A DNA stretch of 64,000 nucleotides from Nitrospira sp. CG24A. GTDB lineage: Bacteria > Nitrospirota > Nitrospiria > Nitrospirales > Nitrospiraceae. The stretch is taken from the NCBI GenBank assembly GCA_002869925.2, contig NEWT02000036.1:1-64000 (forward strand), given 5' to 3'. Position 1 is the stretch's first letter. Every line of letters starts with the position of its first letter. The translations under genes were made by a program, and so were the position numbers. The notes under the pieces were generated by a model, which searched no databases, was not told the DNA's origin, and saw only the letters and a list, made by a program, of their open reading frames with translations. Positions 21,378 to 40,839 of the stretch are shown piece by piece.

Positions 21378-22589
21378 ATGAAGCGACTACTTATCTATTC
21401 CCACGACACCTTCGGCCTCGGCAATATCCGACGCATCATGAATATTGCCACCTATTTACACCGGGCTATCCCGGACATATCTATCCTCATCGTCACCGGA
21501 TCTCCCATGATCCAGAGTTTTCGCATCCCCAAGGGGATCGATTACATCAAGCTCCCGTGCCTCAGCCGGACGGCGCGCGATGGGTACTCGGCAAAGTACC
21601 TCGATTCAACAATCGGGGACGTGATTCGACTGAGGTCCGATCTCATCCTTTCAGCTGTGCTCAATTTCAAGCCCGACGTGATGCTCGTCGACAAGAAGCC
21701 CTACGGGGTCAAGCACGAATTGCGCGAAACGCTGAATCTGGTGAAGGGCTATCTGCCTAAAACCAGAACCATCCTTCTGCTTCGAGACATCCTCGATGCG
21801 CCGGCAACGACCACCAAGGTATGGGAGGACAACGCGTACTTTGAGGCGGTGAATTCCGTCTACGACCTCGTGCTGGTATTGGGCACACCGGAAATCTTCG
21901 ACCCACGGGCCGAATACGGCTTTCCAGTTTCCACCGCTGAAAAAGTTGAGTTCTGCGGGTATATCGAGCCGCAGTCTCTCGTCAGAGACCGGGACACCAT
22001 CAGAGCAGAGCTGCACATTGAGAGGGATGAGCGGCTCATCCTGGTGACACCGGGCGGCGGAGAAGACGGAAACGCTCTGGTGCGAACCTATATCCAGGCC
22101 TTGCAACACATGCCGGTCGGCGCGCATGTCCGCAGCCTGATCGTCACCGGACCGGAGATGTCGGAGCCGCAACGAAATCTTTTACATCAGTCGGCGCTAC
22201 GGTTTCCAAGCGTCAAAACGCTCGACTTCACGAATGACCTGCCCAGCTACATGAACGCCTCCGATCTGGTGGTGTCGATGGGAGGCTACAACACGGTGTG
22301 TGAAATCCTCAGCTTGAAAAAGCGCGCGATTATTGTTCCTCGCGTCAGGCCGGTGGAGGAGCAATGGATTAGAGCAGAACGGATGGCTCGCTTAGGCCTC
22401 TTGACGACCATTCATCCGGATTCACTGACACCCCAAGACTTGCTTCGCACCGTTCTCATGGAGCTCGAGTCAGATCAGTCTCTGCGCCCGACGCTGGATC
22501 TCACTGCGCTCCCCACGCTCACGAGTCATGTCTCTATGTTGCTCGATGACACGTATGAACCGGTGCCCCTAGAGCACCTGTCCCGTTGA
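21378..22589 (+). CDS. MurG-like glycosyltransferase (COG4671 type)
   Basis: 403 residues with the GT-B fold pattern of predicted glycosyltransferases of the COG4671 group: MKRLLIYSHDTFGLGNIRR at the N-terminus (donor/acceptor lobe), LLLRDILDAP, then ILVTPGGGEDGNAL and the nucleotide-sugar lobe LPSYMNASDLVVSMGGYNT, VCEILSLKKRAIIVPR. It is cytoplasmic with no signal or membrane helix. It opens the polysaccharide operon; the downstream gene overlaps its stop. A related domain occurs in the fusion protein at 33695. The sugar transferred is unknown. RBS AAAGGAG upstream of 21378. Confidence 0.8.
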   Translation: MKRLLIYSHDTFGLGNIRRIMNIATYLHRAIPDISILIVTGSPMIQSFRIPKGIDYIKLPCLSRTARDGYSAKYLDSTIGDVIRLRSDLILSAVLNFKPDVMLVDKKPYGVKHELRETLNLVKGYLPKTRTILLLRDILDAPATTTKVWEDNAYFEAVNSVYDLVLVLGTPEIFDPRAEYGFPVSTAEKVEFCGYIEPQSLVRDRDTIRAELHIERDERLILVTPGGGEDGNALVRTYIQALQHMPVGAHVRSLIVTGPEMSEPQRNLLHQSALRFPSVKTLDFTNDLPSYMNASDLVVSMGGYNTVCEILSLKKRAIIVPRVRPVEEQWIRAERMARLGLLTTIHPDSLTPQDLLRTVLMELESDQSLRPTLDLTALPTLTSHVSMLLDDTYEPVPLEHLSR

Positions 22590-25252
22590 TGGCTATGCGC
22601 GACACGAATGTGAAACGGCAGACGGTAGGATATCTCCTGAAAACCTATCCAAAGGTTTCTGAGACATTCATCCTCCAGGAAATTCTCGATCTCGAAGCGC
22701 TCGGGCTGGACCTTGAGATTTTTTCCCTCCAGCGGCCGACCGATACCATCATGCCCAGCCAGGCCAAGCATGTCCTGGCTCCTGTGACCTATCTTCCGAA
22801 GTCCATGGGGGAACGGCAGGGCTGCCCACTGATGAGCCATCTTTGGCTGTTCGCCACACACCCGCTGCGATATGTGAATGCGCTCCGATTTTTACGGCAA
22901 CGACGGGAGGGGCCGTCGTGGTCGGAGTTTATCCAAGGCGGTTGTCTGGCATGGCTGCTCTTACAGTCAGGCATCCGCCATCTCCACGCGCATTTCGCCA
23001 CTGAGCCGGCCGGGACAGCTGAGCTAGTTCATCGTTTTACAGGGATCCCGTACAGCCTCACCTGCCATGCAAAGGACATTTTCCTTTCCTCGCCCGAGGG
23101 GCTCAGCCGGAAGATGCGTCACGCCACGTTTGTCGTCACCTGCACGGAAGCGAACCGTTCGTATCTTCAACGCATAGCCGACAACGGCATACCGATCCAC
23201 CGGATCTACCACGGATTAAACCTGGCGCGGTTCGATGGATTGCGCAAGACCGATTCATCCGCTGACACCGGCATCCTCACGATCCTCAGTGTGGGCCGAT
23301 TCCGTGAGAAGAAAGGTTTTCTGACGTTGATTCGCGCCTGCAGGATCTTAGTGGACGCGGGACATCGGTTCCGTTGCCAGATCGTCGGCTATGGGCCACT
23401 CCAGCCGGAGATGGAAGGACTGATCCGTACGCTCGACCTAAATAAAACGCTGTCGCTTTGCGGGAAGAAAACATTGGAAGAGGTCGTGGACCTCTACCGC
23501 CACGCGGCCATCTTCGCCCTTCCCTGCCAGGTGGCGGATGACGGGGATCGAGATGGCATTCCCAATGTGTTTATGGAAGCGATGGCGATGGGACTTCCGG
23601 TCGTGTCGACCGACGTATCAGGCATTCCTGAACTGATTCACCACAATCAAAACGGCCTCCTCGTTCCACAACAAGACGTCGAGTCGCTCGCCAAGGCGCT
23701 GGGCCGACTGCTCGAGAATCCGGAACTGAGACACAGGCTCGGCCGGGCCGGGCGCGAGACCATCGTGAAGAATTTTGTGTCCGAGCAGTCGAGCCGGCAG
23801 CTCAAAGAACTGTTCTCCGAGACGATGCACACCCGGCCGACGAGGGTCGAATCCCGCGAGTCCCTGGCCGCCGCGCCCGCCTGGCATGAACCAGGACCGG
23901 CTGCGGCGACAGCTCGTGGAGGGCAGGGAACGATCGGGTACATTTTAAAAGGCTTTCCTCGCAATTCAGAAGCCTTTATTACGAACGAGATCTATCTTTT
24001 GGAACGGATGGGGCTCAAGCTCCGTCTGTTTTCGGCCTTTCAGGGTGACAGCACACGCACCGGGTCTCGTGTCCAGGCTCTCTCATCGCAACTGACCTAT
24101 CTCCCCGAATGCGACGAGGCCAAGGACGGCGGGTTTACCCCCTGGTTGCTCTCAAATCTCCCGCGATACCTTCCCAGCCATCTCCACGTGCTGCAAACCG
24201 CACCACGCCGATATCTCCGGACGCTGTTCGAGGCGCTGCGGCTGAGTGTTCATTGTCGGGCAGGAGTCTTCCGGTGGCCCAAGAAAGTGTTTTACAAAGA
24301 CTTCCTCCGCTCAGGCTTTATTGCCTGTCAGGTCAACGAGGCTGGTGACATCCGCCATCTGCATGCGCATTTCTGCCACGGCTCGACCACGATGGCCATG
24401 TTCGCCGGCATGCTGACCGGACTTCCGTTCAGTTTCACAGCCCATGCCAAGGATATCTATCTCTCGAAGCTGAATCCCGGCAACCTCTTACAAATTAAAA
24501 TGCGACGAGCCCGGTTTGTCGCGACCTGCACCGGCTCCAACAAGCAATACTTGGAGGAGGCCTGTCCTGACGGAGCGCCTGTCCACAGGATCTACCATGG
24601 CGTCGACACAGATCGGTTTCGCCCCTCACCGGACGGTGCGCCTGATCGGCCGGTGATTCTCTCCGTCGGACGATTTGTTGAAAAAAAAGGGTTCCCGTTC
24701 CTGGTGGAGGCCTGTGGAATTCTGAGAGACCACGGGCATCAATTTCATTGTCGGATCGTCGGTGAGCCGGATGAGCAAACGGATCTCGTTCGGCACATGA
24801 TCTTTCGGGCTTCCCTTGAAGACAGGATTACCATCGAGCCTGGCGTGACCCAGGACGAACTACAAGCCTTGTATCAAGAGGCCACGCTGTTCGTCCTGCC
24901 TTGCCAGATCGTCGGGAACGGAGATCGCGACGGCATCCCGAATGTCCTGGCCGAAGCCATGGCGACGGGCTTGCCAGTCGTCACGACGGACATATCGGGG
25001 ATTCCGGAGCTGGTGACTCACCGTGAGAACGGCCTGTTGGTCTCTCAACGGGATGCGCATGCCCTCGCCAAGGCCATGGAAGAGTTGCTGGCCGACGTTC
25101 ATCTGCGACAGAGGTTGGGACAGGCCGGGCGAGACACAATCTGCCGCATCTTCAACTCAGCCACGACCACCAGGCAACTGTGCTCATTATTCGACTCGCT
25201 GGCGTGCGATCACGCGATCGCTCAGAAGGAATCTCATGCCGCTTGCTGTTGA
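22589..25252 (+). CDS. Double GT4 glycosyltransferase (tandem-domain fusion)
   Basis: About 887 residues made of two complete GT4-type glycosyltransferases. Module 1 (about 10-410) and module 2 (about 450-880) each start with the same opening (TVGYLLKTYPKVSETFI; TIGYILKGFPRNSEAFI), contain LTCHAKDIFLS / FTAHAKDIYLS, ILSVGRFREKKGF / ILSVGRFVEKKGF and end with the donor-binding EX7E motif (RDGIPNVFMEAMAMGLP; RDGIPNVLAEAMATGLP). Both look active. WcaL/colanic-acid-type enzymes are the nearest recognisable kind. The ATG at 22589 overlaps the previous stop. The fusion could add two sugars in turn to the growing repeat unit. Confidence 0.85.
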   Translation: MAMRDTNVKRQTVGYLLKTYPKVSETFILQEILDLEALGLDLEIFSLQRPTDTIMPSQAKHVLAPVTYLPKSMGERQGCPLMSHLWLFATHPLRYVNALRFLRQRREGPSWSEFIQGGCLAWLLLQSGIRHLHAHFATEPAGTAELVHRFTGIPYSLTCHAKDIFLSSPEGLSRKMRHATFVVTCTEANRSYLQRIADNGIPIHRIYHGLNLARFDGLRKTDSSADTGILTILSVGRFREKKGFLTLIRACRILVDAGHRFRCQIVGYGPLQPEMEGLIRTLDLNKTLSLCGKKTLEEVVDLYRHAAIFALPCQVADDGDRDGIPNVFMEAMAMGLPVVSTDVSGIPELIHHNQNGLLVPQQDVESLAKALGRLLENPELRHRLGRAGRETIVKNFVSEQSSRQLKELFSETMHTRPTRVESRESLAAAPAWHEPGPAAATARGGQGTIGYILKGFPRNSEAFITNEIYLLERMGLKLRLFSAFQGDSTRTGSRVQALSSQLTYLPECDEAKDGGFTPWLLSNLPRYLPSHLHVLQTAPRRYLRTLFEALRLSVHCRAGVFRWPKKVFYKDFLRSGFIACQVNEAGDIRHLHAHFCHGSTTMAMFAGMLTGLPFSFTAHAKDIYLSKLNPGNLLQIKMRRARFVATCTGSNKQYLEEACPDGAPVHRIYHGVDTDRFRPSPDGAPDRPVILSVGRFVEKKGFPFLVEACGILRDHGHQFHCRIVGEPDEQTDLVRHMIFRASLEDRITIEPGVTQDELQALYQEATLFVLPCQIVGNGDRDGIPNVLAEAMATGLPVVTTDISGIPELVTHRENGLLVSQRDAHALAKAMEELLADVHLRQRLGQAGRDTICRIFNSATTTRQLCSLFDSLACDHAIAQKESHAACC

Positions 25253-27233
25253 TCGACCATTGGTTTCCACGACTGCGGCATACCGAAACCTGTTCCGCGC
25301 TCCATACGACGCCTGGACCCCGAGCCAACTCCTCCGTCATTTCCAAACAAGGACGTCGCCGCGCTATTTTCCTGTTGTGGATCCCATCGAATCCGCACGG
25401 GAAAAGATCGAGCATATTCTCAACAGCCGGTTTGAGTTTAATCAGGAATCCCATATCGTGCCGGCGCCGATCCGATGGACCGTGAATTCCAGTCACGATC
25501 GTGAATGGCTGATACTCCTCCACAAGTTCTACTACGCCGTCGGACTAGGGACGGCATATGACGAGACCAAGGCTTCTTGTTACGCCGAGAAGTGGGTCGA
25601 TCTCACGACATCCTGGATCGAAACAGTTCCACTGGATTTCCTGCCCAGCGACGTAGCCGGCCGGCGCATCCAAAATTGGATATTCGCGCACTACTATTTT
25701 GTGACGCTCCATCAACCAGCCGCCATTGATTCCCACTTCTACATGCGGTTCCTCGGATCGCTGCATCGTCAGATTTGCTATCTGCGTGAGCACCTCACAC
25801 CGGCGAGAAACCACCGCACCTTGGAGCTCTGCGCGATCTTTCTAACGGCCGTGGTGTTTCCGGAATTTGTCGAGGCGGAGGACTGGCTCGCGTTTTCTAC
25901 ACGTGAGCTGTCGAGCAATATTCAAACTGACTTCCTGCCGGATGGAGTCCATTGCGAACTCTCCACCGATTACCATCATCTCGTCCTTAAGAATTACCTC
26001 TGGATCCGTAAGCTGGCTCATCTCAACCATATCGACATGCCGGAATCGATAGACGACGGGATCAAGAAGGCTCTTGAGTTCTCCGTCTATTCACATAGGC
26101 CTGACGGCGCAATTCCATCGCTGAGCGATGGAGATAGCCGGAGTTTCCTTGACCTGCTGGAGCAGGGCTACGAACTCTACGGCAGTGAGCACTTCAAGTA
26201 CGTTGCGTCTCAAGGGATGACTGGAACGCCTCCCGGAGACCGATCGCGTAGATTTACCGCCGGCGGGTATTTCATTCTCCGGAGTGGCTGGGGCGATCAA
26301 GGGGAGTCGTTTCAGGATCAGCGGTATTTGATCTTCGACTGTGGCCCTGTCGGCGCGGGGAACCATGGGCATCTCGATCTCTTAAATTTCGAGATGGCGG
26401 CCTATGGCCGCCCGTTGATCGTCGATCCTGGGCGCTATACCTACGACGAATCCGGCGCGACCAATTGGCGGGCGCTCTTCCGAGGGACCGCCTACCACAA
26501 TACTGTGCTCGTGGACGGCAAGAATCAAACGCGGTACGAGTGGAAGAAAAACCGATTCAAGATTTCCGGACCTGAGCCGGAGCGGGAATTGAAGGCGTTC
26601 GTCAGCCACCAAGGACTCGACTATCTGCACGGGGTAGCCCGGAGCCACGAGTACCCCGTGGTTCACGAGCGGAAGGTGGCGTTCATCAACGGGGAATACT
26701 GGGTCATTGTTGATATCCTGAGAGCCACTGAGCCCCATACCTACGACCTGTTGTTCCACCTGTCGCCTTCGGCGCAGGGTCAGGTCTCAGCTATGGTGTC
26801 GGACGACACACTGTCGATCCATTCGCCACAGCTTATTCTTGCACAGCCGCTCCTTCCGAATGTGCGCCCATCTATCCAGGAAGGCTTCGTGTCCAGCTCA
26901 TACGGCGAAAAACAGCGTGCTCCGATCGTGCGGCTGACTCAACGAGACTCAAGCGCCTGTTTCCTCACCGTTGTGTATCCATACAAAGACACTGAGCCGA
27001 ACATCTCCGTTGTCACGCTGGAACCAGACAGCGGACCTCAGGCCCTCCTCTTGGGCGAACGGGCGCCGGTTCGCATCACCATTGAGCGCGCTGGAGAACG
27101 GTATCGCGACGACCTGCTGTTTACGAGTCAGACCGCCTCGCTCATCGGAATGGCTGATGCGCCATCTTCTACACATGTACGCGTATCGAGAACGGACCGC
27201 CATGGCCGGCTTCTGTTCCGGCATGAGGTGTGA
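25236..27233 (+). CDS. Cytoplasmic heparinase II/III-like protein
   Basis: 665 residues without signal peptide. The N-terminal half is an alpha/alpha toroid (WLILLHKFYYAVGLGTAYDE, EHLTPARNHRTLELCAIFLT, CELSTDYHHLVLKNYLWI) and the C-terminal half carries the Hepar_II_III signature FDCGPVGAGNHGHLDLLNF, then GRPLIVDPGRYTYDES and YHNTVLVDG. Such proteins are polysaccharide lyases or, in exopolysaccharide loci, intracellular modifying enzymes. The ATG at 25236 has AAGGA upstream and overlaps the preceding gene by 17 bp. A truncated paralogue is at 28753. Activity on the locus product is inferred. Confidence 0.85.
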   Translation: MPLAVDRPLVSTTAAYRNLFRAPYDAWTPSQLLRHFQTRTSPRYFPVVDPIESAREKIEHILNSRFEFNQESHIVPAPIRWTVNSSHDREWLILLHKFYYAVGLGTAYDETKASCYAEKWVDLTTSWIETVPLDFLPSDVAGRRIQNWIFAHYYFVTLHQPAAIDSHFYMRFLGSLHRQICYLREHLTPARNHRTLELCAIFLTAVVFPEFVEAEDWLAFSTRELSSNIQTDFLPDGVHCELSTDYHHLVLKNYLWIRKLAHLNHIDMPESIDDGIKKALEFSVYSHRPDGAIPSLSDGDSRSFLDLLEQGYELYGSEHFKYVASQGMTGTPPGDRSRRFTAGGYFILRSGWGDQGESFQDQRYLIFDCGPVGAGNHGHLDLLNFEMAAYGRPLIVDPGRYTYDESGATNWRALFRGTAYHNTVLVDGKNQTRYEWKKNRFKISGPEPERELKAFVSHQGLDYLHGVARSHEYPVVHERKVAFINGEYWVIVDILRATEPHTYDLLFHLSPSAQGQVSAMVSDDTLSIHSPQLILAQPLLPNVRPSIQEGFVSSSYGEKQRAPIVRLTQRDSSACFLTVVYPYKDTEPNISVVTLEPDSGPQALLLGERAPVRITIERAGERYRDDLLFTSQTASLIGMADAPSSTHVRVSRTDRHGRLLFRHEV

Positions 27234-27236
27234 ACG

Positions 27237-28739
27237 ATGATGAATCATGCTGTCATCGATGGAGCTGCCGCACTTGGTCGTCCCGAGACCCTTGCCGGTC
27301 GCGAAATTCCGACGGATGTCCTGCTTCCACAGCTCGCAATGATCCTGGAACCCGAGGCGATGAAAGAGAGACTACAAGAACAGATATTTAGCTCTCTCCA
27401 AGAGCGGGAACGTTTCCGTATACGCGCCTGCGAAATCCCCCAAATCCGATACAAGCCGGAATCCTCCTGCATGGTGACGTATCGTCTTGACATCGAGGAT
27501 ATGACGACCCGAAAAACAGGAGAACTAGCGCTCTGTGGTCTCGCATACCCCGAGGGACGGTCTCAATCACACTGGGAAAAGGCTCGTGGGCGCGCCGTGG
27601 TTCAACCTCGGTTCGGGAAGCCCGTGGTGTATCTGCCCGATCTGGAGATGTTGCTCTGGAGTTTTCCTAATGATCCTAAGCTCAGAGGTTTGCCGTACAT
27701 GACCGATCTTTCCATGCTGCGGAGAGAGGTCATGCCGGAGGTGATCGCCAACACGTTTGGCTCAGATTGGCACATACGACACATCGCGCATGCGATGATT
27801 CGTTACAAAATAGGACACACCTGCATCGTGCGAGTGCGACTGCACCTGCGGCATGGGTCCACCGGGAAGAAACGGTCTGCGGTGTTATACGGCAAAACGT
27901 ATGACAATGAGGATGGCGCGGAAACCTATCGGAATATGCGCCGATTGTGGGAGGGCGAGGCCAGAACGCTTGGCCAACTCGGGATGGCACAGCCGGTCGC
28001 CTACCAAGCCGAAAGTAAGAGTCTCTGGGTCACGGCCTTAGCAGGCAAGACGCTCTCAGCGTACACGATGACACAACCGAAATTTCTTGCACTGTTGAAA
28101 CAAGCGGCCGTTACCGTATCAGCACTGCATCAATCACCTGTATCATGTTCGGGCATAATCACCACCACGGGCGTGATGGCCGCGTTACAGGATGCGGAAA
28201 CAATCATCGGGCGTGCCATCCCGTCTTTCAGTCGCACGCTGCAACGCATTGTCAAGAACCTGATCCTCCAGTCCCAAGGGTTCGGAACACGTCCCCTCGC
28301 AACCTTGCACCATGACTTGCACCTCAAGAACATGTACGCGCGGTCAGGAAAGGTCGCCTTAATCGATCTCGACAACCTCTGCCTAGGCGACCCTCTCTAT
28401 GACATTGGCAGATTTATCGCCAGCATTCATACGTACGGCCTCATGCAGAATCTGCCGGAGCGGCGCGTGAAACAGGTCAACGACGCCTTTGTCCACGCGT
28501 ACCGCAGCCATGTGCCGTGGGAGGTCCCGCAGCAATTGGTCGACTGGCACGTCACGACCGCACTCATCGTCAAGAATGCCATGCGCTGTGCAAAGCGACT
28601 CCAGTCGGGCCCCCTGAGAGAGTTGGCAGATCTCATCGAGCGTGTGAGTCGAGACGCTGTCGTGATGGATGAATTGAATCCTCCCTCCGAGCGCTCGACC
28701 TGCGTCAACTCGCAGGCTGCCCTGCAACTGAACGGGTAA
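27237..28739 (+). CDS. APH-fold kinase 1 of the polysaccharide locus
   Basis: About 500 residues with a C-terminal aminoglycoside-phosphotransferase-like kinase domain: HHDLHLKNM (catalytic Asp360, Asn365) and the metal-binding IDLDNLCLGDPLYD (Asp377, Asp379). The first 200 residues contain a second alpha/beta region with IRYKPESSCMVTYRL, a pattern also seen in kinases at 32287 and 37902, and may be a degenerate kinase lobe. It probably phosphorylates a sugar or polyol. It lies 3 bp after the heparinase-like gene and belongs to the operon. A fragment of a related kinase remains at 30003. Confidence 0.75.
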   Translation: MMNHAVIDGAAALGRPETLAGREIPTDVLLPQLAMILEPEAMKERLQEQIFSSLQERERFRIRACEIPQIRYKPESSCMVTYRLDIEDMTTRKTGELALCGLAYPEGRSQSHWEKARGRAVVQPRFGKPVVYLPDLEMLLWSFPNDPKLRGLPYMTDLSMLRREVMPEVIANTFGSDWHIRHIAHAMIRYKIGHTCIVRVRLHLRHGSTGKKRSAVLYGKTYDNEDGAETYRNMRRLWEGEARTLGQLGMAQPVAYQAESKSLWVTALAGKTLSAYTMTQPKFLALLKQAAVTVSALHQSPVSCSGIITTTGVMAALQDAETIIGRAIPSFSRTLQRIVKNLILQSQGFGTRPLATLHHDLHLKNMYARSGKVALIDLDNLCLGDPLYDIGRFIASIHTYGLMQNLPERRVKQVNDAFVHAYRSHVPWEVPQQLVDWHVTTALIVKNAMRCAKRLQSGPLRELADLIERVSRDAVVMDELNPPSERSTCVNSQAALQLNG

Positions 28740-28752
28740 GCATGTGGGTACC

Positions 28753-30002: not shown

Positions 30003-30619
30003 CCGACCGTCGCTTCGATCTGACCGACATCAATGAGTCTCTCATAGACACCATTGCAGCGGCCAGGCAAGCGTATCCGGACATTGAAGGTCGCATTGCG
30101 GCACTGGTGAACACCTTGTTGTCGCAACGCCGCTCCATGGGTTGGTCAGAAACCCTCACCACTCCGATTCATCATGATCTCAAGATGCGCAATTTCCTGA
30201 TCGATGGGGAACGCATTACGCTCATCGACATGGACTGTGTCTGTCTCGGCGACCCCTTCAGCGACCTCGGCAGTCTGATCGCGAATTTCTATCTCAATGG
30301 AATTCGAGCCGGATGTCATCAGGACAGGATTCGAGAGGCCGTGGACGTGTTCTGCCGCACCTACGCCGAATGCGTTCCCTGGAGCCCATCCTGGCCACAG
30401 GTCGACTGGCACACGGCTGCAGCGTTTATCCATGAGGTGACGCGTCGGAGCATTCGACAACTGGACGGCCAGCGTGTGACGCACATCCGCGAATACCTCG
30501 ACCTCTGTGAACGTTTGCTATCCGGCGAATCTGTTATATCGAACGAACGGAATTCACTACACCATGGATCCAAACAGGATGTGGCCCGTAAGGCATCAGA
30601 CGTCCAGAACGTGTCGTGA
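30003..30619 (+). pseudogene. C-terminal half of an APH-fold kinase (deletion remnant)
   Basis: The frame open from 29936 gives, after the junction at 30002/30003, SDRRFDLTDINESLIDTI, then HHDLKMRNFLIDG and LIDMDCVCLGDPFSDLGSL, the catalytic and metal-binding motifs of an APH kinase like that at 27237 (same ..VPW..VDWH.. region later). The N-lobe with the ATP-binding loop is missing, removed by the same deletion that cut the heparinase gene. It is 37 bp upstream of the next operon gene. Confidence 0.8.
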
Positions 30620-30656
30620 ACGCTGACTGATCGATTACGAACACTGAGAAGACACC

Positions 30657-32286: not shown

Positions 32287-33678
32287 ATGACGCATGTATG
32301 GAATTTCTCTCTCAAGGGAATGGGAATGCTTCACGTAACCAAATTTGCCGATCCGTCTGTCATGAAGGCCCTGCTCTCGGAGCGCCTCCCGCTACTTTGC
32401 CCTGAGGGTGAGGCTATTACGAGTTGCCACGTCCAGCATGTGCGGTATTCCCCAAAGAAGAAGCCGGAACACGCGAGCCTGGCCGCCTGCTACCACCTGA
32501 GAGTCAGAGGCAGAGATTCCCAACGCGAGCAGCTCATGATCCTGTACGGAAAAGCATTTCGAAACGGAAGAAGCCAGAGAGAACTCGACACCATGGCCGG
32601 TCACAGAATCGGCGCCCATGCTTCCCCCGGCATGCCGCTCCACTTCCGCGACCTTGATCTGCTCCTGTGGGTGTTCCCGGAAGATCCGGCGATCCCGCAT
32701 CTGCCGGAAGTGATCGATCCGGAACGGGTCATGGCCTATCTTCCCTATGCATCCCTTCCGAAGGGTCTTGATGGGACGGGCGACATCAGGTCGGTCGACG
32801 TGTCGGTCATACACTATCGCCCCGAGATACGGTGCACGACCCGGTACGATCTTCGCTGGGGAGCGATCGATCAGCCTCAGCGTCTCACCATTTTCGGCAA
32901 GACGTTTCGAAGCGCTGAGGGGCATGACGTCTTCGCCAGGAGTGAATACTTGTGGAATCGTTGCTCTGGAGTAGAGGAGAACGTGCTCTTCGCGCAACCA
33001 CTCGGGTACACGTCTGCGGTACACACTCTATGGCAACTCGGCGTGGAGGGGATTCCACTCTGTTGCGCGATCGGGGAAAACAATTGCGATTCCTATCTTC
33101 GGACGGTCGCTAAGGGATTGGCGATGATTCATCACAGCGACTTGGAGGGTCTCCCGAAATGGACTCTGGGCGAACACCTGACTGAAGTTGAGAAGAAGAT
33201 TGAAAAGCTACGCCGGGCGATGCCGTCGCTGGTTGAAGAACTGAACCTCCTCGCACAGCGTATCCAACGCGACGCGCCAATCCCGTCCGACATCCCGCTT
33301 CGACCGATGTATTGGGATTTCCACGTCGATCAGCTCTTGGCCCAAGACGGGAAAGTGGCTTTCTTCGATTTTGACGAGCTCGCCCTCGGAGATCCCTTAC
33401 AGAATCTCGCGAACTTTATCGTGGACCTGCACTTCCGTGAGTTGAGCCCATTGCTGGCTCAACAGATGGCAAAGTCGTTGTACCACCACTATCAATCTCA
33501 GGTGACGTGGGAGGTCCCGGTCGATCGTGTCAGATGGCACGCGAGGGTTCAGTTCATCAATAAAGCTTACAGAGTTTACATTTCACAGCCTCCTGACGTC
33601 AAAGAGACGGTGAGGGGCATCATCCATATGGCTGCCGAGGAAACGATGTTGGGCTGGCTCGACAACGCGATCGGCTGA
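32287..33678 (+). CDS. APH-fold kinase 2 of the polysaccharide locus
   Basis: About 463 residues. C-terminal kinase core: PMYWDFHVDQLLAQDGKVAF (catalytic Asp344) and FFDFDELALGDPLQNL. The residue five after the catalytic Asp, usually Asn, is Gln, as in maltokinase-type enzymes (HGDLHLGQ). The N-terminal region again has RYSPKKKPEHASLAACYHLRV and a similar second HYRPEIRCTTRYDLRW, two related blocks suggesting an internal repeat or degenerate N-lobe. Starts at 32287 or 32320 are possible. It lies 7 bp after the fusion gene; sugar phosphorylation is inferred. Confidence 0.75.
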   Translation: MTHVWNFSLKGMGMLHVTKFADPSVMKALLSERLPLLCPEGEAITSCHVQHVRYSPKKKPEHASLAACYHLRVRGRDSQREQLMILYGKAFRNGRSQRELDTMAGHRIGAHASPGMPLHFRDLDLLLWVFPEDPAIPHLPEVIDPERVMAYLPYASLPKGLDGTGDIRSVDVSVIHYRPEIRCTTRYDLRWGAIDQPQRLTIFGKTFRSAEGHDVFARSEYLWNRCSGVEENVLFAQPLGYTSAVHTLWQLGVEGIPLCCAIGENNCDSYLRTVAKGLAMIHHSDLEGLPKWTLGEHLTEVEKKIEKLRRAMPSLVEELNLLAQRIQRDAPIPSDIPLRPMYWDFHVDQLLAQDGKVAFFDFDELALGDPLQNLANFIVDLHFRELSPLLAQQMAKSLYHHYQSQVTWEVPVDRVRWHARVQFINKAYRVYISQPPDVKETVRGIIHMAAEETMLGWLDNAIG

Positions 33679-33694
33679 CCGAGGAAATATCGCG

Positions 33695-35710
33695 ATGAAA
33701 AAACGGATACTCATATATTGCCAACATGTTCTTGGAATGGGGCATCTCGTAAGAAGCCTGGAGATCGTTCGGGCGCTGACAGACTGGGACGTCACGTTTC
33801 TGAACGGCGGCGATCTTTGCCCCGGCATGGAATTTCCCCCTCAGACGAAGATCGTGAATCTCCCGCCGATCAAATCGGAATCGGACTTCAAGACCATCAT
33901 CGCTGCAGAACATGGTCAGGACCTGGACGTAGTGAAACGGACTCGCGCAAGTCGACTCCAAGCAGAGTTTGCCCGTATCCAGCCTGATGTCTTTCTCATC
34001 GAAATGTTTCCGTTTGGACGCAAACACTTTGCGTTCGAGTTGGTGCCGGTCTTAGAACAAATCCGGCTTAAAAAAATGCCGACGGCCGTGGTCTGCAGCC
34101 TCCGCGACATCTTGGTCAATAATAAGCGGAATCAGGCGCAGCATAACGAACGGGCGATCACGCTCATGAATCGGTACTTCGACCTGCTCTTGGTGCACGC
34201 AGATCCGCGATTCCAAACTCTCGATGAAACGTTTCCGCAGGTCCGGGAGCTTCGATGCGAGATCAGATATACGGGATTTGTTTCGCAAGAGGCTCCGCAG
34301 CAGCGCCTGGATGTGGCGACACATCGCTCTTCGGACCAACCCATGATCCTCGTGAGCATCGGAGGAGGCCGAGTCGGCTATGAACTGGTGGAATGTGCCC
34401 TGCAAGCATCGGCACAGCTTCGAACACACTTCCCGCACCGCATGATGATGTTGACGGGGCCCTATATGCCGGAGGAGCAGTTTCAAGCGCTCCTCACATC
34501 GGCGGCGATGCAGAAGCAGGTGACGATCTCGCGATACACCCCCGATTTTCTCTCCTACTTACGGGAGGCCTCTCTCTCAATCAGCATGGCCGGCTACAAC
34601 ACCTGCATGAATTTATTGACCACTGGCACCAAGGCATTGGTCATGCCGTTTACCGGTGGAGGCAATACCGAGCAAACCATCCGTGCAGAAAAGCTGGCTC
34701 AACTTGGAGTCGTCGGCGTACTCAGCGAATCGCCGTTGCGACCCGGCTACCTGGCAGAACGAATGATTCAGGCGCTCCGAACTCCGTCCTCGGCGCACAG
34801 GCTCTCCCTCGATCACGATGGTGCCAAGAAGACCGCGACATGCCTGGAAGAGCTGGCCGCGAGGAAGAAGCCTGTATCGAACCATCTGGTCCCTGGTTCC
34901 TTCTCGCTTCTGAACGGGAAACACCGAACCGCTTGGCAAACAGAATTGCGTGGAAGCCTTGAGTTGATTCAGGCTGAGGGGAAGGAAGTCCGGATCTTCT
35001 TCCGAGACGACGACATCGACGAAGATGAAGAGTCTCTTCTACGGTTGCTCGACTTGTTCCTGGCCCACGGGGCGCCGCTGAACTTGGCGATCATACCCAA
35101 CCTCCTCTCGGATGCCACCGTGAGACAGCTTCTCATGAGAGAACTATGGATTCCGGAGTCTCTCGGGCTGATTCAGCACGGATGGAGGCACACCAACCAT
35201 GAGCCAGCAGGACGGAAATGCGAGTTTGGAATCAGCCGTTCGCTGGCTGACAAATTTCACGATATAGCACGTGGAAAAATTCGGCTGGAAGAAGCCTTCG
35301 GCCCGCGATTCTATCCGGCCTTCACACCTCCCTGGAATCGCTGCACGCAGGATACGTTTGGCGTGTTGGACGAGCTTGGATTTATGGTCTTTTCCAAAGA
35401 TCAGGGGAAGGAATCCGTCGAAGGCCATCGATTCCAGGAAATTTCTACCACACTGGATCTCTATCGCTGGAAAGGCGGGGCGACGCTCCAACCTCCCGAT
35501 ATCACTACGAAGACCTTGATCAGCCAGCTATGGGAACTCGACACGATTGGAATTCTCTTGCACCATAAAGTCATGGACGACACGGCATTCACATTTCTCG
35601 ATCAACTGTTGAAGGAGCTGCGGCATTGCCCCCAGGTACGGTTCCACACGCTCAAAACCCTCAGCCAACAGATCGAAGCAGCGCAAGCAGCGTCACAGTC
35701 GTACACATGA
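33695..35710 (+). CDS. Glycosyltransferase-polysaccharide deacetylase fusion
   Basis: 671 residues. Residues 1-400 resemble the COG4671-type glycosyltransferase at 21378 (KRILIYCQHVLGMGHLVRS, VCSLRDILV, MILVSIGGGRVGYELVE, ASLSISMAGYNTCMNLL). Residues ~425-660 form a NodB-like deacetylase: FFRDDDIDEDEE (Asp438-440, metal site), QHGWRHTNH with the HxxxH pair His495/His499, and FTPPWNR. The protein lacks a signal peptide, so deacetylation would be cytoplasmic. It may transfer and then deacetylate an amino sugar. Start ATG 33695 with GAGGAAA upstream; the ABC gene overlaps its stop. Confidence 0.85.
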   Translation: MKKRILIYCQHVLGMGHLVRSLEIVRALTDWDVTFLNGGDLCPGMEFPPQTKIVNLPPIKSESDFKTIIAAEHGQDLDVVKRTRASRLQAEFARIQPDVFLIEMFPFGRKHFAFELVPVLEQIRLKKMPTAVVCSLRDILVNNKRNQAQHNERAITLMNRYFDLLLVHADPRFQTLDETFPQVRELRCEIRYTGFVSQEAPQQRLDVATHRSSDQPMILVSIGGGRVGYELVECALQASAQLRTHFPHRMMMLTGPYMPEEQFQALLTSAAMQKQVTISRYTPDFLSYLREASLSISMAGYNTCMNLLTTGTKALVMPFTGGGNTEQTIRAEKLAQLGVVGVLSESPLRPGYLAERMIQALRTPSSAHRLSLDHDGAKKTATCLEELAARKKPVSNHLVPGSFSLLNGKHRTAWQTELRGSLELIQAEGKEVRIFFRDDDIDEDEESLLRLLDLFLAHGAPLNLAIIPNLLSDATVRQLLMRELWIPESLGLIQHGWRHTNHEPAGRKCEFGISRSLADKFHDIARGKIRLEEAFGPRFYPAFTPPWNRCTQDTFGVLDELGFMVFSKDQGKESVEGHRFQEISTTLDLYRWKGGATLQPPDITTKTLISQLWELDTIGILLHHKVMDDTAFTFLDQLLKELRHCPQVRFHTLKTLSQQIEAAQAASQSYT

Positions 35711-37569
35711 TGAACGTACAACGACAGAGCCGATTCAAAGAGATTGTTTTCCGTCACCTGCTGAGAATGAAGGGACGCCTTTCCTTGGCGGCTGTGTGCC
35801 TCGTGGGGTACACAGCCTTCGAACTGCTGAAACCCTGGCCCCTCAAAGTCCTGTTCGACTACGTGTTGCTGCAGCAGCCGCTCCCGGCTTCCCTGTCTCT
35901 TCTCCAGGACGTGCTCCACAACGGTATGCTGCTGTCGCTGGGCCTTGTCGCCGGCGCGATTATCGGCATCAGCATCCTGAGCGGCGTCTTTTCCTATGGA
36001 CAGTTGTACCTGACGTCGAAAGTCGGTTTCCTGCTCAGCGCCACACTCCGGAATGAACTGTTCTCTCGCTTGCAACGCCTCTCGCTGTCGTTTCACAACC
36101 ACGCGAAGTCCGGCGAACTGCTCATCAAAGTGTCGAGCGACACGGCTGCACTCCGTGATGTCTTCGCCGAGTGGTCGCTGACGATGGCCGGTCATGGCCT
36201 GACGCTGCTCGGCATGATGGCGATCATGTTTGTGTTGAACTGGAAATTGGCCCTTGTCGCCATGGTGACCCTACCGGTTATGGGCACTCTCCTCTTCGTC
36301 CTGATCCGGAAGGTCAAGGCCACGGCCCAGAAACAGCGGAAACACGAAGGGGCGATAGCCTCTCACGTGAATGAAGTCTTGGGGGCCATCTCCCTCGTCC
36401 AGGCATTCGGACGGGAAGAGCATGAAGAATCGCGGCTCCAGAAGTACAGCGACCACCACGTGGAACAAGGCATTCACACGGCGAGACTCACCGCTTCTGT
36501 CTCCAGAATGGTCCATGTCGTGGAAGCGCTCGGAACCGCCGGGATTGTTCTCTTTGGAGGCTGGTTGGTCCTAGAAAAACAGATGACGCCGGGGGATCTG
36601 CTCATTTTTCTCTCGTATGGCCACTCGCTCTACAAACCGCTGCGGAATTTGAGCAGTCTGTCGGTCAAATTCTCCCGGGCAATGGTCAGCGCGAAACGTG
36701 TCGCGGATATCCTCGACATGGAGCCGGAGATCCGCGATCTGCCTGACGCACGACAGGCCACGGCCCTGCAGGGAGACATCGCATTTCATCAAGTCACGTT
36801 CGGCTATGAGCGCGACACCAATGTGTTGCACGAAGTGTCCTTTCACATCGAGACCGGCCAGAAGGTGGCATTGGTCGGCTCCTCTGGAGCCGGAAAGTCG
36901 ACGATCGTCAGTCTGATTCTTCGTCTCTACGAACCACAAACCGGCTCCATCGTGATCGACGGAATCGACAGCGCCCAATACAACCGGGAATCTCTCCGGC
37001 AGCACATCGGCATCGTCCTGCAAGATACGGTGTTATTCGGCGCGAGTATCGCAGAAAACATTTCCTACGGGAAACCCGATGCGACACACGATGAGATTGA
37101 ACGAGCAGCGAGGCTCGCCTATGCCCACGACTTCATTACTGCTCTCTCCAATGGCTACGACACCATTCTCGGCGAAAGGGGAAACACACTGTCCGGAGGA
37201 CAACGGCAGCGGATCTGCTTGGCGCGCGCCATTATCAAACAGCCCTCGATCCTCATCCTTGACGAACCGACATCCGCCGTGGATCCCGTGTCAGCCGCGC
37301 TGATTCGCGACACCGTGGCCCGTCTCCAGACAGGCAAGACGACCCTCGTCATTGCGCATCAATTCTTTGCGATGGATCAGTTCGATCAGATTCTGGTCCT
37401 TGAGAATGGCCGCGTCGTCGAACAAGGCAGGCACATCGACCTCATGGCTCGAAAAGGCCGTTATTGCGATCTGCTTGCGCACCAGATGCGCGAGAAGCAA
37501 TGGGAAGATGTCGGTGCATCGAATCCGCTCCATCCTGACACTGAAGGGGAAGCTGAAACATATGCTTAA
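35707..37569 (+). CDS. ABC exporter, fused membrane and ATPase domains
   Basis: 620 residues, an MsbA/lipid-flippase-type half transporter. Six membrane helices (about 15-300) precede the ATPase domain with Walker A GSSGAGKST (391-399), signature LSGGQRQR (~495), Walker B ILILDEPTSAVD and the H-loop IAHQ. ATGA overlap with the preceding deacetylase fusion supports cotranscription. It most likely flips a lipid-linked glycan or glycolipid made by the locus. A fragment of a MacB-like permease begins in its last codons (37562). Confidence 0.9.
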   Translation: MMNVQRQSRFKEIVFRHLLRMKGRLSLAAVCLVGYTAFELLKPWPLKVLFDYVLLQQPLPASLSLLQDVLHNGMLLSLGLVAGAIIGISILSGVFSYGQLYLTSKVGFLLSATLRNELFSRLQRLSLSFHNHAKSGELLIKVSSDTAALRDVFAEWSLTMAGHGLTLLGMMAIMFVLNWKLALVAMVTLPVMGTLLFVLIRKVKATAQKQRKHEGAIASHVNEVLGAISLVQAFGREEHEESRLQKYSDHHVEQGIHTARLTASVSRMVHVVEALGTAGIVLFGGWLVLEKQMTPGDLLIFLSYGHSLYKPLRNLSSLSVKFSRAMVSAKRVADILDMEPEIRDLPDARQATALQGDIAFHQVTFGYERDTNVLHEVSFHIETGQKVALVGSSGAGKSTIVSLILRLYEPQTGSIVIDGIDSAQYNRESLRQHIGIVLQDTVLFGASIAENISYGKPDATHDEIERAARLAYAHDFITALSNGYDTILGERGNTLSGGQRQRICLARAIIKQPSILILDEPTSAVDPVSAALIRDTVARLQTGKTTLVIAHQFFAMDQFDQILVLENGRVVEQGRHIDLMARKGRYCDLLAHQMREKQWEDVGASNPLHPDTEGEAETYA

Positions 37570-37901: not shown

Positions 37902-39266
37902 ATGACAGCACGGCAAGCCATTGAGACCCTGGAACGCTACACCGATTGTGCACATATGCAAAGACGCTTGCAGGCTCATGCGATGCAACTGCTGGGCGAC
38001 AATCTGACGATCCTGGGTTGTCGGATCGTTGAGTCGCGGCTCAAAACTTTCCGGAATCCTGAGTCATGGCACAAGGCGAGCCTGAACGTGTGTTACGAGC
38101 TGGATGTGGAAGGATTCACCATGCCGCAAATCCTGCACGCACACGTGTTCTTGCAAGGGCGTAGCGACGCCGAATACCGGGAATGTTGCGCACGGGCGAA
38201 ATCGGACGCAATCCCTCAACATGTGCCGGATCTCGGCATGGTCGTCTGGCGTTTTCCACTGGATCCAGCGATAGATCAGTTGTCGACTCTCTGGGACATG
38301 GACTGGCCTCTGGCCAATCTCCCGCTCGGCCAGGTGCCCCAGGACTGTGTGGAATCCTGCGCCAGTCTGGAGCGCGTGGATCGACGCGTCGTCAAGTACA
38401 GCCCGGAGAGGAGCTGTGTCATCCGTTTTGATCTGCCTCGGCGCGCCGGGACACAGACACGGTCGGCCCGCGCGCTCTACGCCAAGGTCTACGCAGGCCG
38501 GGACGGAGAACTCGCGTATGAACGACAGAGGTTTTTCAATAAGCCGCCATCGCCGGACAATTCAGGGTTGGCGATCCGTACCGCTCCCGCGTTGGCATAC
38601 GACCAGTCGTTACGAATATTCTGGCAAGGGGAAGCCGCCGGGGATTCCCTGGATTCGGTGCTGGCTCATGGCAACGAGGCTCCGTATCTCGATCAGGTCG
38701 GCCGTGGTTTGGCATCCGTGCACGCGAGCGGCCTGGGCGGCACGTCGGTCGTGAAACTGGAACACCGGGTCTTCGAATGTTCGAAGAAAATTTCCAAGCT
38801 TGTGCCTGCCTTTCCATCGTGCGCTACACAGCTCAAGGCCATCAGCAAAATGCTCGAACGTGCGACCGCAACCTATGCAACGCCAGTGGCGGCGGAAGAC
38901 CCCGTCTCGTTGTACGGCGATTTTCACCCTCGACAAATGCTCATCGCGGACGGCGAGGTATGCTTCCTGGATTTCGATTTAATGGTTCAGGGAGACCCCG
39001 AGTCCGATTTGGCGGAATTCTTCGTGGCGTTGTTGGATCTTGGGTTACAACCGGAACGGGTACGGGAGGCAGTCGCGCACATCCTGATGGCCTACCAGCG
39101 TGACGCCACAAGACCGATCTGTCACGAATTATTGCGGCTCTATACGCGTATTGAATACATAGAGCATGCCTATCGGCTCTTCCTAAGGCTGGACCCCGGT
39201 TGGCGTGAAACCTTCCAGAATGCGCTCGATCGGTTCCCGCAACTACAGGATGTTTTTCCAGATTGA
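37902..39266 (+). CDS. APH-fold kinase 3 of the polysaccharide locus
   Basis: 454 residues. The kinase core is SLYGDFHPRQMLIADGEVCF (catalytic Asp340, Gln345 in place of Asn) followed by FLDFDLMVQGDPESDLAEFF. Other shared blocks are VVKYSPERSCVIRFDL (~160-175) and LYAKVYAGRDGELAYERQRF. The domain layout equals that of kinases at 27237 and 32287. The gap before it (37769-37901) carries only the relic of a permease and possibly a promoter. It probably phosphorylates a sugar for the locus. Start ATG at 37902. Confidence 0.75.
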   Translation: MTARQAIETLERYTDCAHMQRRLQAHAMQLLGDNLTILGCRIVESRLKTFRNPESWHKASLNVCYELDVEGFTMPQILHAHVFLQGRSDAEYRECCARAKSDAIPQHVPDLGMVVWRFPLDPAIDQLSTLWDMDWPLANLPLGQVPQDCVESCASLERVDRRVVKYSPERSCVIRFDLPRRAGTQTRSARALYAKVYAGRDGELAYERQRFFNKPPSPDNSGLAIRTAPALAYDQSLRIFWQGEAAGDSLDSVLAHGNEAPYLDQVGRGLASVHASGLGGTSVVKLEHRVFECSKKISKLVPAFPSCATQLKAISKMLERATATYATPVAAEDPVSLYGDFHPRQMLIADGEVCFLDFDLMVQGDPESDLAEFFVALLDLGLQPERVREAVAHILMAYQRDATRPICHELLRLYTRIEYIEHAYRLFLRLDPGWRETFQNALDRFPQLQDVFPD

Positions 39267-39327
39267 CGGACCAATGGGTTGCGATTGAATACCACAACTA
39301 TGGCCTTCTCAACCGAACACGACTGAG

Positions 39328-40839
39328 ATGAAATATCTACATCATTCAACATTCAATCAATGCCGTCGAGAAGGAGCGCTCCGAACAAAGGGTGCATCCT
39401 GCAACATTCTCCATGTCGGCATTGTGATCGTTCTCATGCATGTGCCCTTTGCCGGCCCGGCGCAGGCCGCAGCTGAATTGAAGGAGGGGCCTGCGAGCCG
39501 CGCAACGCCATCATCAACCGATGCGTCGTTAACAAAACCGCCCGTTGCACAACCTCTTGACCCAAATACACCATCGAACCCTACCACACCCGATGCTCCG
39601 GCTCTCGAGCCTTTTGACCCGAATGCACCACCGAGAGCTACCATCCCCATCGGCCCCAATCTATTCTTTGGTGGCTATGTATCGCTCGATGGAGAAAGCA
39701 ATCGAAACTATAGCCTCTCCTCCCATCTAGGCAAAGCCGACAGCATCTTAACCACGAACCTTGCCCCCGCGTTCGCCTATGAGCCCAATCAATACCTTCA
39801 GCTCTACCTGAATCCTATTCTCGAGATACCAGTCACCGTGGAGAAAACCGAAGATACGTCGAAAAGGACCGAGTTGAACATGAACCTGGCGTTTCTCACG
39901 CTGAAAAATGTTGTCCCAGGAGCCAAACTGCAAGTCGGCAGACAGCGTTTCATCGACTCCAGACGATGGCTCTTCAATGAAAACATGGACGCAATCAGGT
40001 TAGGTTACCAGTATGAAAGTTTTTCCGTGGAGGTGTCGGCCAGCCAACTGAATCTGGTTCAGCGAAATGTATTGAGACGAGAGGCAGAGGAGGACGAGGA
40101 AAGGCTTCTCAATTATTACGCATATGCCGATTATAAATTCGGCAAGAACAAGAAGAGTCACGTCGGCATATTTGCACTCTATCAGGATCAGCAACGACTC
40201 GGCACGGCGCAACCTATTTATGTCGGCCTCCAGTTAGGAGGGAGACTCTTCGGGGATTTGAAATACTGGCTGCAAACAGCTGTTGTCCGTGGCACAGATG
40301 ACGCCAAGACCATTCGAGGCGAGGCCATCGATGTGGGGTTGACGCAACGCTTTGGCGGATCCTGGCAACCGTCCATTACAGTCGGGTACGCCTACGGCAC
40401 CGGAGACAGAAATCCCGACGATAATGTCGATCGATCCTTTCGACAGACCGGCTTTCAAGGCAATTCCGATAAATTCAATGGCGTCGCGCGGTTCAAATAT
40501 TACGGGGAAGTGCTGGATCCCAGGCTGACGAATCTTATGGTCTTTACCGGCGGGGTCGGCATCCAACCTTTCGAAAAGACCTCATTCGACGTGGTCTACC
40601 ACTATTATCTACAAGACCATGCGTCCACACGCCTTCGTGGCTCTGATTTCACAATTGGCCCTACCGGTCTGAGTAAACATGTAGGAAGTGAAGTCGATTT
40701 TATAGCGGGATATCAAGGCATACCGAACCTGCAAACAAAGTTTGTCCTCGGTTATTTTTTACCTGGCAACGCTTTTGCCGACACGTCCCGTGACGGCGCG
40801 TTCTTAGCCAGCATACTATTCCGGTACAACTTCTACTAA
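39328..40839 (+). CDS. Alginate-export (AlgE)-type outer-membrane porin
   Basis: 503 residues: a signal peptide (ILHVGIVIVLMHVPFAGPAQA), a disordered proline/aspartate-rich linker with two related units (PLDPNTPSNPTTPDAP; PFDPNAPPRATIP), then an AlgE-family barrel (VGRQRFIDSRRWLFNENMDA, IRLGYQYESFSVEVSAS, HVGSEVDFIAGYQG) ending FRYNFY. AlgE exports anionic polysaccharide. As the last gene of the locus it presumably forms the outer-membrane exit for the product made upstream. It begins 61 bp after kinase 3. Confidence 0.85.
   Translation: MKYLHHSTFNQCRREGALRTKGASCNILHVGIVIVLMHVPFAGPAQAAAELKEGPASRATPSSTDASLTKPPVAQPLDPNTPSNPTTPDAPALEPFDPNAPPRATIPIGPNLFFGGYVSLDGESNRNYSLSSHLGKADSILTTNLAPAFAYEPNQYLQLYLNPILEIPVTVEKTEDTSKRTELNMNLAFLTLKNVVPGAKLQVGRQRFIDSRRWLFNENMDAIRLGYQYESFSVEVSASQLNLVQRNVLRREAEEDEERLLNYYAYADYKFGKNKKSHVGIFALYQDQQRLGTAQPIYVGLQLGGRLFGDLKYWLQTAVVRGTDDAKTIRGEAIDVGLTQRFGGSWQPSITVGYAYGTGDRNPDDNVDRSFRQTGFQGNSDKFNGVARFKYYGEVLDPRLTNLMVFTGGVGIQPFEKTSFDVVYHYYLQDHASTRLRGSDFTIGPTGLSKHVGSEVDFIAGYQGIPNLQTKFVLGYFLPGNAFADTSRDGAFLASILFRYNFY

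Follow-up and report, generated by a model that had tools for sequence, protein, structure and literature searches.

In polymerase–terminator O-antigen assembly, a kinase phosphorylates the chain end and an ATP-binding cassette (ABC) transporter exports the product; in WbdA/WbdD of E. coli O9a and in Klebsiella O3 and O7, such a kinase works on an ABC-exported glycan together with a polymerase of several glycosyltransferase (GT) domains (PMC11231755). We have analyzed a locus at 21378-40839 of a 64,000-nucleotide stretch of Nitrospira sp. CG24A (GCA_002869925.2, contig NEWT02000036.1, positions 1 to 64,000; the whole stretch is called the window here) that, as proposed below, would share with these systems a multi-GT polymerase, a cytoplasmic kinase acting on the glycan and ABC export. 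Polymerase–terminator assembly is its nearest working precedent. The locus is best classed as a variant of ABC-exporter-dependent glycan assembly that is widespread and, by our literature search, undescribed as a system. An earlier note on this DNA had allowed that the gene set might already be known as a named exopolysaccharide system; the literature searched (titles and abstract openings, with most subscription journals outside coverage) yielded no such description. The note had stressed five kinases of one fold. The unusual parts are instead double-N-lobe kinases and their association with a heparinase-like enzyme, rather than the raw number, and because the gene set is spread over several phyla it is a system rather than a curiosity.

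The locus occupies 19.5 kb of the + strand and, by Pfam, encodes four GT domains, an intact heparinase III-like gene, an MsbA-type exporter, an Alginate_exp barrel and kinases. The gene content and coordinates in the earlier note held up against Pfam and an open reading frame (ORF) check, as did its reading of ATGA overlaps and short gaps, which continue to 37.57 kb and are followed by a gap of ∼330 bases before APH3. Two GT genes and a GT–deacetylase fusion had been claimed; all are present, and since the gene at 22586-25252 joins two GT4 domains, the number of GT domains in the locus comes to four. Its kinase domains comprise four untruncated APH-type domains, one of them fused to a nucleotidyltransferase-like domain, and one fragment; by type these are three double-N-lobe kinases, a fused kinase with a single N-lobe, and a dead fragment. 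The genes are as follows.

21378-22589, + strand: GT28a, a GT28-like glycosyltransferase (PF04101, 1.6e-13), query of the cross-phylum search
22586-25252, + strand: GT4-GT4 double-domain glycosyltransferase, two GT4 domains in one gene (Pfam)
25236-27233, + strand: Hep1, heparinase III-like (PL12-type), 665 residues from the likely start, ATG at 25236 (PF16889 and PF07940)
27237-28739, + strand: APH1, double-N-lobe kinase of the N clade, the sole untruncated N-clade kinase in the window
28753-30036, + strand: remnant of a second heparinase, Hep2, homologous to ∼30003, most of the C-terminal domain gone
30003-30619, + strand: C-lobe part of a former N-clade kinase, with the deletion junction at 30003
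30657-32279, + strand: nucleotidyltransferase-like domain (∼residues 1-200) fused to an APH-type kinase (PF01636, 5e-10)
32320-33678, + strand: APH2, Q-clade kinase with a double N-lobe and with Gln at the metal position of the catalytic loop; the start was picked by the lengths of relatives, and alternative starts are possible
33695-35710, + strand: GT28-like glycosyltransferase fused to a DUF2334/polysaccharide-deacetylase-like domain (Pfam)
35707-37569, + strand: MsbA-type ABC exporter, a half-transporter with fused transmembrane and nucleotide-binding domains (PF00664 and PF00005), its ATG overlapping the preceding stop
37902-39266, + strand: APH3, divergent Q-clade kinase with a double N-lobe, lying between exporter and barrel (placed by the tree, end branch 1.52)
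39328-40839, + strand: Alginate_exp outer-membrane barrel (PF13372, 2.8e-33), which closes the locus in relatives too

Comparison with described systems places the locus among none of them exactly. Its exporter is a fused MsbA-type half-transporter (NCBIfam MsbA, 1.8e-128, under that model's cut-off), whereas Wzm/Wzt is a separate permease and an ATPase, with a carbohydrate-binding module where the exported chains are terminated. Unlike the WbdD systems, it has no methyltransferase domain among its genes (Pfam), and it adds a heparinase, an outer-membrane barrel and several kinases. With alginate (alg) loci it shares the Alginate_exp/AlgE-type barrel, but inner-membrane export differs. As the earlier note had said of synthase and epimerase, Pfam at E ≤0.001 gave no Alg8-type GT2 synthase, AlgG epimerase, AlgK or AlgX among the genes of 21378-40839, to which that search was limited; an alginate locus was thus rejected, the barrel alone fitting. 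The Wzx/Wzy initiating transferase (Bac_transf, PF02397) had no match in this 95% complete genome, in a search whose control gave matches in 9/14 genomes; the genome-wide search did not extend to Wzx and Wzy. The locus is not alginate and not Wzx/Wzy. The twisted-stalk (sfz) locus of iron oxidizers was also rejected, having other gene content with GT2 and BcsB-like domains (PMC8250860). The same GT and exporter core does occur in cyanobacterial GT28a-GT28p-GT4-GT2-ABC-phosphatase-OprB loci and in rhizobial plasmid GT28a-GT4-GT28p-ABC loci, in which the models used found no double-N-lobe kinase and no heparinase.

Within Nitrospirota, the gene order is kept in 10 loci besides the window, two of which (G193 and G159) lack their left end because the contig or the fetched stretch stops there; G139 and a second G159 locus have a reduced form with GTs, kinases, exporter and barrel. 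This synteny supports the earlier suggestion of a glycan assembly and export locus and makes kinases a fixed component of it. The GT28-DUF2334 fusion was found in 12/118 family genomes at E ≤1e-60, representing 2/22 genera, and kinase P0004 matched 30/198 phylum genomes, 12 of them at E ≤2e-28 and the other 18 weakly (from 5.9e-6 upward). For the cross-phylum sample, to which all locus counts refer, the GT28a alignment was searched against one genome per species and the best 80 of 543 relatives were taken; seven duplicates or near-duplicates (L052, L053, L101, L103, L104, L109 and L126) were left out of the neighborhood and pairing counts. Among these best 80 of 543, the nearest named loci are Nitrospira metagenome-assembled genomes (MAGs), and the phyla include Nitrospirota, Cyanobacteria, Pseudomonadota, Chloroflexota, Acidobacteriota, Myxococcota, Zixibacteria, Krumholzibacteria and others; all of these named phyla apart from Cyanobacteria also have syntenic loci.

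The neighborhoods sort into three types. Type I has a heparinase and an N-clade kinase, in most cases also a Q-clade kinase, and a GT28-like gene that may or may not carry DUF2334, followed by the exporter and barrel where the contig extends. Type II has kinases and no heparinase. Type III, from cyanobacteria, has no kinase detected by the models, often a histidine phosphatase, and an OprB relative in 14 loci. A histidine phosphatase also often sits between two kinases. Outside Nitrospira, heparinase or kinase loci usually have two separate GT4 genes in place of the GT4-GT4 fusion.

The double-N-lobe kinases, of which related loci carry one to three each in distinct clades, belong to the APH fold and retain its catalytic residues. 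PF01636 matches 30/30 kinases, and of 72 double-N-lobe kinases 99% have the catalytic Asp 360 and 100% the metal-binding Asp 377. The catalytic-loop metal position is Asn in classical APH enzymes; in the 72 kinases it is Gln, Asn or His. A quick tree search without bootstrap on 70 of these rows (L126 and ORF L095:18062, which has Ser in place of the catalytic Asp, were removed) needs 3 changes to account for the labels Q, N and H (minimum 2; 0/200 shuffles as low). The N clade (27 rows) and Q clade (25 rows, 21 Gln and 4 Asn) each have a Shimodaira–Hasegawa-like approximate likelihood ratio (SH-aLRT) support of 99. The N clade covers Nitrospirota, Chloroflexota, Pseudomonadota, Acidobacteriota and Myxococcota, and the Q clade the first three of these. 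APH1 falls in the N clade and APH2 and APH3 in the Q clade, APH3 on a long branch and in a place between exporter and barrel that, among the heparinase-bearing Nitrospirota loci compared, is seen in the window only and is usual in heparinase-free loci. The five kinases of the earlier note therefore stand as four untruncated domains and a fragment, and its idea of an expansion peculiar to this locus does not: the clades are common to several phyla, and on the tree a recent local amplification was rejected.

The APH1 family also departs from the one-N-lobe, one-C-lobe plan of PF01636 kinases, a statement that does not extend to the fusion protein. In an AlphaFold model of APH1 built from a 30-row alignment (mean predicted local distance difference test score, pLDDT, 90.5), a unit of helix, three strands, helix and two strands occurs twice before a single C-lobe. 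The N-lobe is duplicated: a profile comparison (hhalign) of residues 28-150 with 150-276 gave a probability of 99.1 and E of 1.2e-18, as against 3.4 at most in 50 column shuffles and 0.3 for the C-lobe. The ATP-lysine column of the catalytic N-lobe is Lys in 26/30, and P144 and D146 at the end of the first N-lobe are invariant (30/30). Fold matches include homoserine kinase, maltokinase, PsiK, Rv3168, LxmK, glucosamine (GlcN) kinase and choline kinase, with Z of 23.0-20.6; maltokinase is the top Foldseek match (TM-score 0.42/0.46, root-mean-square deviation 13.7), its Z near-tied with many families. Maltokinase and glucosamine kinase may share with the locus kinases an APH/eukaryotic-like kinase fold with an extra N-terminal subdomain; the published maltokinase cap has 88 residues and was compared with cystatins (PMC4306142, PMC6520443), whereas the extra part of the locus kinases is, by profile comparison, a repeat of the N-lobe.

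In the loci sampled, the N-clade kinase accompanies the heparinase. Double-N-lobe kinases occur in 42 loci; a heparinase is present in 28 of these and absent from 14. Each of the 28 carries one and only one N-clade kinase, assigned by best-scoring model, and its gene immediately follows that of a heparinase (in L112 it runs off the contig end, and in L113 the match covers 317 residues only); the window, one of the 28, has in addition the N-clade fragment after its broken heparinase. None of the 14 loci without a heparinase has an N-clade or Q-clade kinase. Two loci that end inside the heparinase (L051 and L105) are outside the 28, and L093 and L094, from one MAG, are both counted. Four Candidatus Manganitrophus plasmid loci outside the training set have the same arrangement of a heparinase, one N-clade and then one Q-clade kinase (4/4). 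Six loci (G036, G043, G135, G159, L054 and L093) have two heparinases and one N-clade kinase. Since a single N-clade kinase is present in loci with one or two heparinases, and the second kinase is dead in the window, we read this pattern as suggesting that one N-clade kinase is needed and one is sufficient.

Comparison with close relatives indicates how the second kinase was lost. The G135 locus keeps Hep1, Hep2 and the kinase after Hep2 and is missing APH1; G197 keeps Hep1 and APH1 and is missing the Hep2 part; the window has both heparinase–kinase pairs, the second dead. Window 28786-30003 aligns at 91% to L043 8912-10130 (the G135 locus) and window 30003-30637 at 89% to L043 11864-12497, and 1733 bases of the G135 locus are missing from the window at the junction, 30003. 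Because the flanking parts align on either side of this segment, the broken Hep2 and the kinase fragment, both reported in the earlier note, trace to one event. As judged from these alignments, the dead pair is what a single 1.73-kb deletion relative to the congener left, an assembly error being an alternative source. No direct repeats of at least 20 bases were found in 27000-31500. The Hep2 remnant retains the N, Y and H catalytic residues.

The clustering is marked in the genome as a whole. PF01636 has 7 matches in 3.36 Mb, and the locus holds 4 of these, counting the fragment; that search overlooked the nucleotidyltransferase–kinase, which hmmscan scores at 5e-10. Five of eight APH-type genes within 19.5 kb corresponds to p ∼2e-9 under uniform placement. 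Both genomic matches to Hepar_II_III_C fall inside the locus.

Hep1 matches the N- and C-terminal Hepar_II_III domains of Pfam at 1.1e-38 and 1.1e-39, and its nearest solved relative is heparinase III (PDB 4mmi, 6e-26). The catalytic residues of heparinase III are given as Asn240, Tyr294 and His424 in a table of PMC12088678, and N263, Y317 and H448 of Hep1 (P0003 numbering) align with them. This triad is invariant in 35/35 homologues of these loci, the Hep2 remnant included, so the lyase-like protein seen by the earlier note has its active-site residues intact. Hep1 thus shares sequence family and N/Y/H triad with PL12 heparinase III (4mmh, 5jmd, 4fnv), but differs in lying in a biosynthetic operon with a kinase alongside and in having no signal peptide seen in a by-eye reading, no predictor having been run. 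It is likeliest a lyase- or epimerase-like enzyme; the triad fits both.

Two other fusions have weaker family matches. The part of the 33695-35710 product called a deacetylase in the earlier note scores poorly against DUF2334 in the window (0.0036) and better in relatives (6/6, best 1.6e-8); Polysacc_deac_1 matches 1/6 of these parts, and a sequence search of the PDB found no relative of the domain. The nucleotidyltransferase-like domain of the kinase fusion matches CTP_transf_like in 5/6 members, all weakly (best 0.0037; window member 0.22), and the domain at 30657 matches NadD at 0.0012; a PPHxxH motif is conserved. The HIGH-type nucleotidyltransferase superfamily, which has an H-x-x-H motif, is the candidate assignment. 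An AlphaFold model of the fusion from a 2-row alignment has a pLDDT of 35.7, and a PDB sequence search with P0007 alone found no relative. The fusion occurs in 6/395 phylum genomes, one copy being split over two contigs, and an APH kinase flanks it on either side in the four loci fetched besides the window. The metal-binding Asp and the Asn of its kinase half are present in 5/5. The fusion would be an optional module of the system.

These observations lead us to favor, tentatively and at somewhat less than an even chance, a cytoplasmically assembled, ABC-exported glycan on which a lyase- or epimerase-like enzyme and a kinase act before it is exported. The GTs would assemble a glycan containing uronate at the cytoplasmic face. 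Prior to export, the heparinase-like enzyme would process it, either by β-elimination (chain trimming or release) or, through related chemistry, by C5-epimerization, and the N-clade kinase would phosphorylate the product of this step, at a chain end or on a sugar of the glycan. Q-clade kinases would phosphorylate a second position or the terminus, and the glycan would leave through the ABC exporter and then the outer-membrane barrel. Uronate in the product is possible on the gene content, and the product could be a short glycan. A narrower version, in which cytoplasmic cutting or epimerization of a uronate glycan is a first step and the kinase then marks the new end or residue, licensing MsbA-type and barrel export, seems to us unlikely as it stands.

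Several results weigh against this reading. No polymerase or initiating transferase was recognized in the locus, Pfam gives the exporter no domain beyond ABC_membrane and ABC_tran, and no coiled-coil ruler of the WbdD kind was seen in the locus kinases, though no search was aimed at one. Kinase fold and profile matches are spread over many APH-fold enzymes and name no substrate; the published GlcN-kinase signature Q-x2-RE-x2-YA-x3-LP-x-W is absent from all 72 kinases and from P0007, and that identity was rejected. In the first N-lobe the ATP-lysine column is Arg in 16/30 and Lys in 9/30, and with either residue in 25/30 this lobe should not simply be labeled a dead pseudo-lobe. The catalytic-loop Asp of the fusion is kept in 3/5, the window included, and is Asn in 2/5 (2 of 4 homologues), which makes the activity of the fused kinase uncertain. 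With regard to the pairing, a rule that each heparinase has its own kinase fails in the six loci where a single N-clade kinase accompanies two heparinases; the clade models score the same loci on which they were trained, the Manganitrophus plasmid loci excepted; and a GT28a tree of 38 of the 42 loci (without G159, G193, G159b and L110) gives 3 independent contrasts, all agreeing, with a sign test p of 0.25 (both traits are identical and one table served for both). The statistical case is weak for that reason, though the pairing spans phyla. As for uronate, its presence fits with UDP-glucose-dehydrogenase-like genes in the fetched flanks of 8 loci (Pfam check for L127 only): four cyanobacterial and kinase-free, two Zixibacterial, one unclassified near-twin of a Zixibacterial one, and one Nitrosomonadales. 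None of the 8 carries a heparinase, so uronate is not linked to heparinase by linkage and the dehydrogenase was rejected as a mark of heparinase loci; the window locus has none either, two over-cut-off matches lying elsewhere in the genome.

The kinases might instead activate precursors, phosphorylating free sugars or alcohols toward nucleotide donors with the nucleotidyltransferase acting next and the glycan itself left unphosphorylated. That a nucleotidyltransferase-like domain and a kinase share one polypeptide in 5 genomes, lying between two APH kinases in four other loci, speaks for this, as do the known sugar kinases of the APH fold, with maltokinase and GlcN kinase among the fold matches, and the histidine phosphatase often placed between the two kinases. 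However, with the fusion in 6/395 phylum genomes, most loci are without a nucleotidyltransferase, and its catalytic-loop Asp is replaced in 2/5. The kinases are also constantly associated with a polymer-active type of enzyme, which suggests a polymer-associated substrate, and we consider precursor activation rather doubtful. Another alternative is salvage, which the earlier note had suggested, or quality control: the heparinase-like lyase would break down polymer left behind in the cytoplasm, and the kinases would phosphorylate the sugars set free so that they can be used again. This would account for the intact lyase residues, the lack of a signal peptide by eye, the adjacent kinases and, in the window, a nucleotidyltransferase fusion at hand. 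Unsaturated uronate products would require further enzymes, none of which was recognized in the locus, and the heparinase goes consistently with the N-clade kinase, whereas the nucleotidyltransferase that recycling would use is rare (the same 6/395); 14 loci, moreover, retain kinases without any heparinase. This makes salvage quite unlikely.

The heparinase-like proteins could also be uronyl C5-epimerases that, with the deacetylase-like domain, make a modified glycosaminoglycan-like polymer. Heparinase-fold epimerases such as dermatan sulfate epimerase exist, and a deacetylase-like domain is encoded near the enzyme in the same biosynthetic operon; among solved structures, heparinase III proteins are its closest relatives, which is also counted in favor of this alternative. 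The sequence family is nevertheless that of heparinase III, a lyase, and the triad alone does not separate lyase from epimerase; we regard a dedicated epimerase locus as improbable. Least probable of all, to the point of being very unlikely, is a small glycolipid or secondary metabolite moved by the exporter and barrel and tailored by the kinases. MsbA-type exporters move lipids, no polymerase, Wzx/Wzy or initiating transferase was recognized in the locus, and PF02397 has 0 matches in the genome; but a heparinase III-like enzyme and an outer-membrane barrel are conserved together, and an OprB-type porin closes the locus in cyanobacterial relatives (by Pfam in L061; as blastp relatives in 14 loci).

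If the favored reading of a glycan modified before export is correct, these loci would define a class of ABC-exported glycans that spans phyla and has its own kinases of unusual architecture, and the locus can sit on plasmids of 34-37 kb. The labels ‘aminoglycoside phosphotransferase’, ‘alginate lyase family’ and ‘alginate export’ in plasmid records would become a testable pathway, with glycans rather than antibiotics as possible kinase substrates. The two-step end-processing version would, if true, amount to a novel mechanism for setting and marking the chain length of ABC-exported glycans across several phyla and on small plasmids. The CG24A genome has one ammonia monooxygenase (AMO, PF02461) match and is comammox-like for that reason; to our knowledge, the matrix chemistry of comammox-like Nitrospira and of Candidatus Manganitrophus, a manganese oxidizer, is poorly characterized.

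The whole locus is present on circular plasmids of Candidatus Manganitrophus (Nitrospirota) of 34, 37, 238 and 329 kb (L137, L140, L141 and L142). Several ORFs are split in these loci, which we take for sequencing errors. Isolate GAC2 carries the locus on two different small plasmids, and in three of the four loci (L137 at 22081-23052, L141 and L142; not L140) a radical SAM gene lies between the N-clade kinase and the histidine phosphatase. Two rhizobial plasmid stretches among 271 plasmid records form the rhizobial comparison, and both have a kinase-free GT core: Rhizobium leguminosarum pSK02 (L138) and Sinorhizobium meliloti pSymB (L139). There the core lies beside adenylate/guanylate cyclase-domain genes and adjoins a cyclic-nucleotide-binding or Crp-type gene and a large ABC exporter, with a polysaccharide lyase also beside it in S. 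meliloti. The plasmid search with P0001 returned a GT28a relative in ten Escherichia plasmid records as well. Among the MAGs, ACE_NIT7 holds two versions of the locus, L093 and L094, with identical GT28a rows and middles of Hep-Hep-kinase and Hep-kinase. L095 is labeled Nitrosospira (isolate ‘CMX’), yet its kinases and GT28a nest within Nitrospira; it is perhaps a mislabeled comammox MAG.

Upstream of the locus, three genes were assigned by Pfam.

12073-14661, + strand: PAS/HAMP histidine kinase, possible upstream regulator
14767-15453, + strand: OmpR-type response regulator, possible upstream regulator
20763-21230, + strand: receiver-domain protein (PF00072), first gene of the block conserved with congeners

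The window aligns from 20637 to G135 and G197, and from 20792 to L054. In G135 and G197, the DNA upstream of the corresponding locus aligns with parts of 12073-15453, and, judged from position alone, the regulator pair there are possible members of the system. Rfam and tRNA scans gave no matches. Downstream in the window are an ECF sigma factor (43715-44299) and a CBM48-like protein (44301-44987), a caspase-TPR protein (47495-48877) and two alpha-amylase-family proteins (55417-58431 and 59296-60975). In L111, a CHAT-TPR caspase-like protein (5292-8177) lies upstream of GT28a, and beside its gene a secreted-looking protein of ∼440 residues (8327-9652) has relatives in nine or ten other loci.

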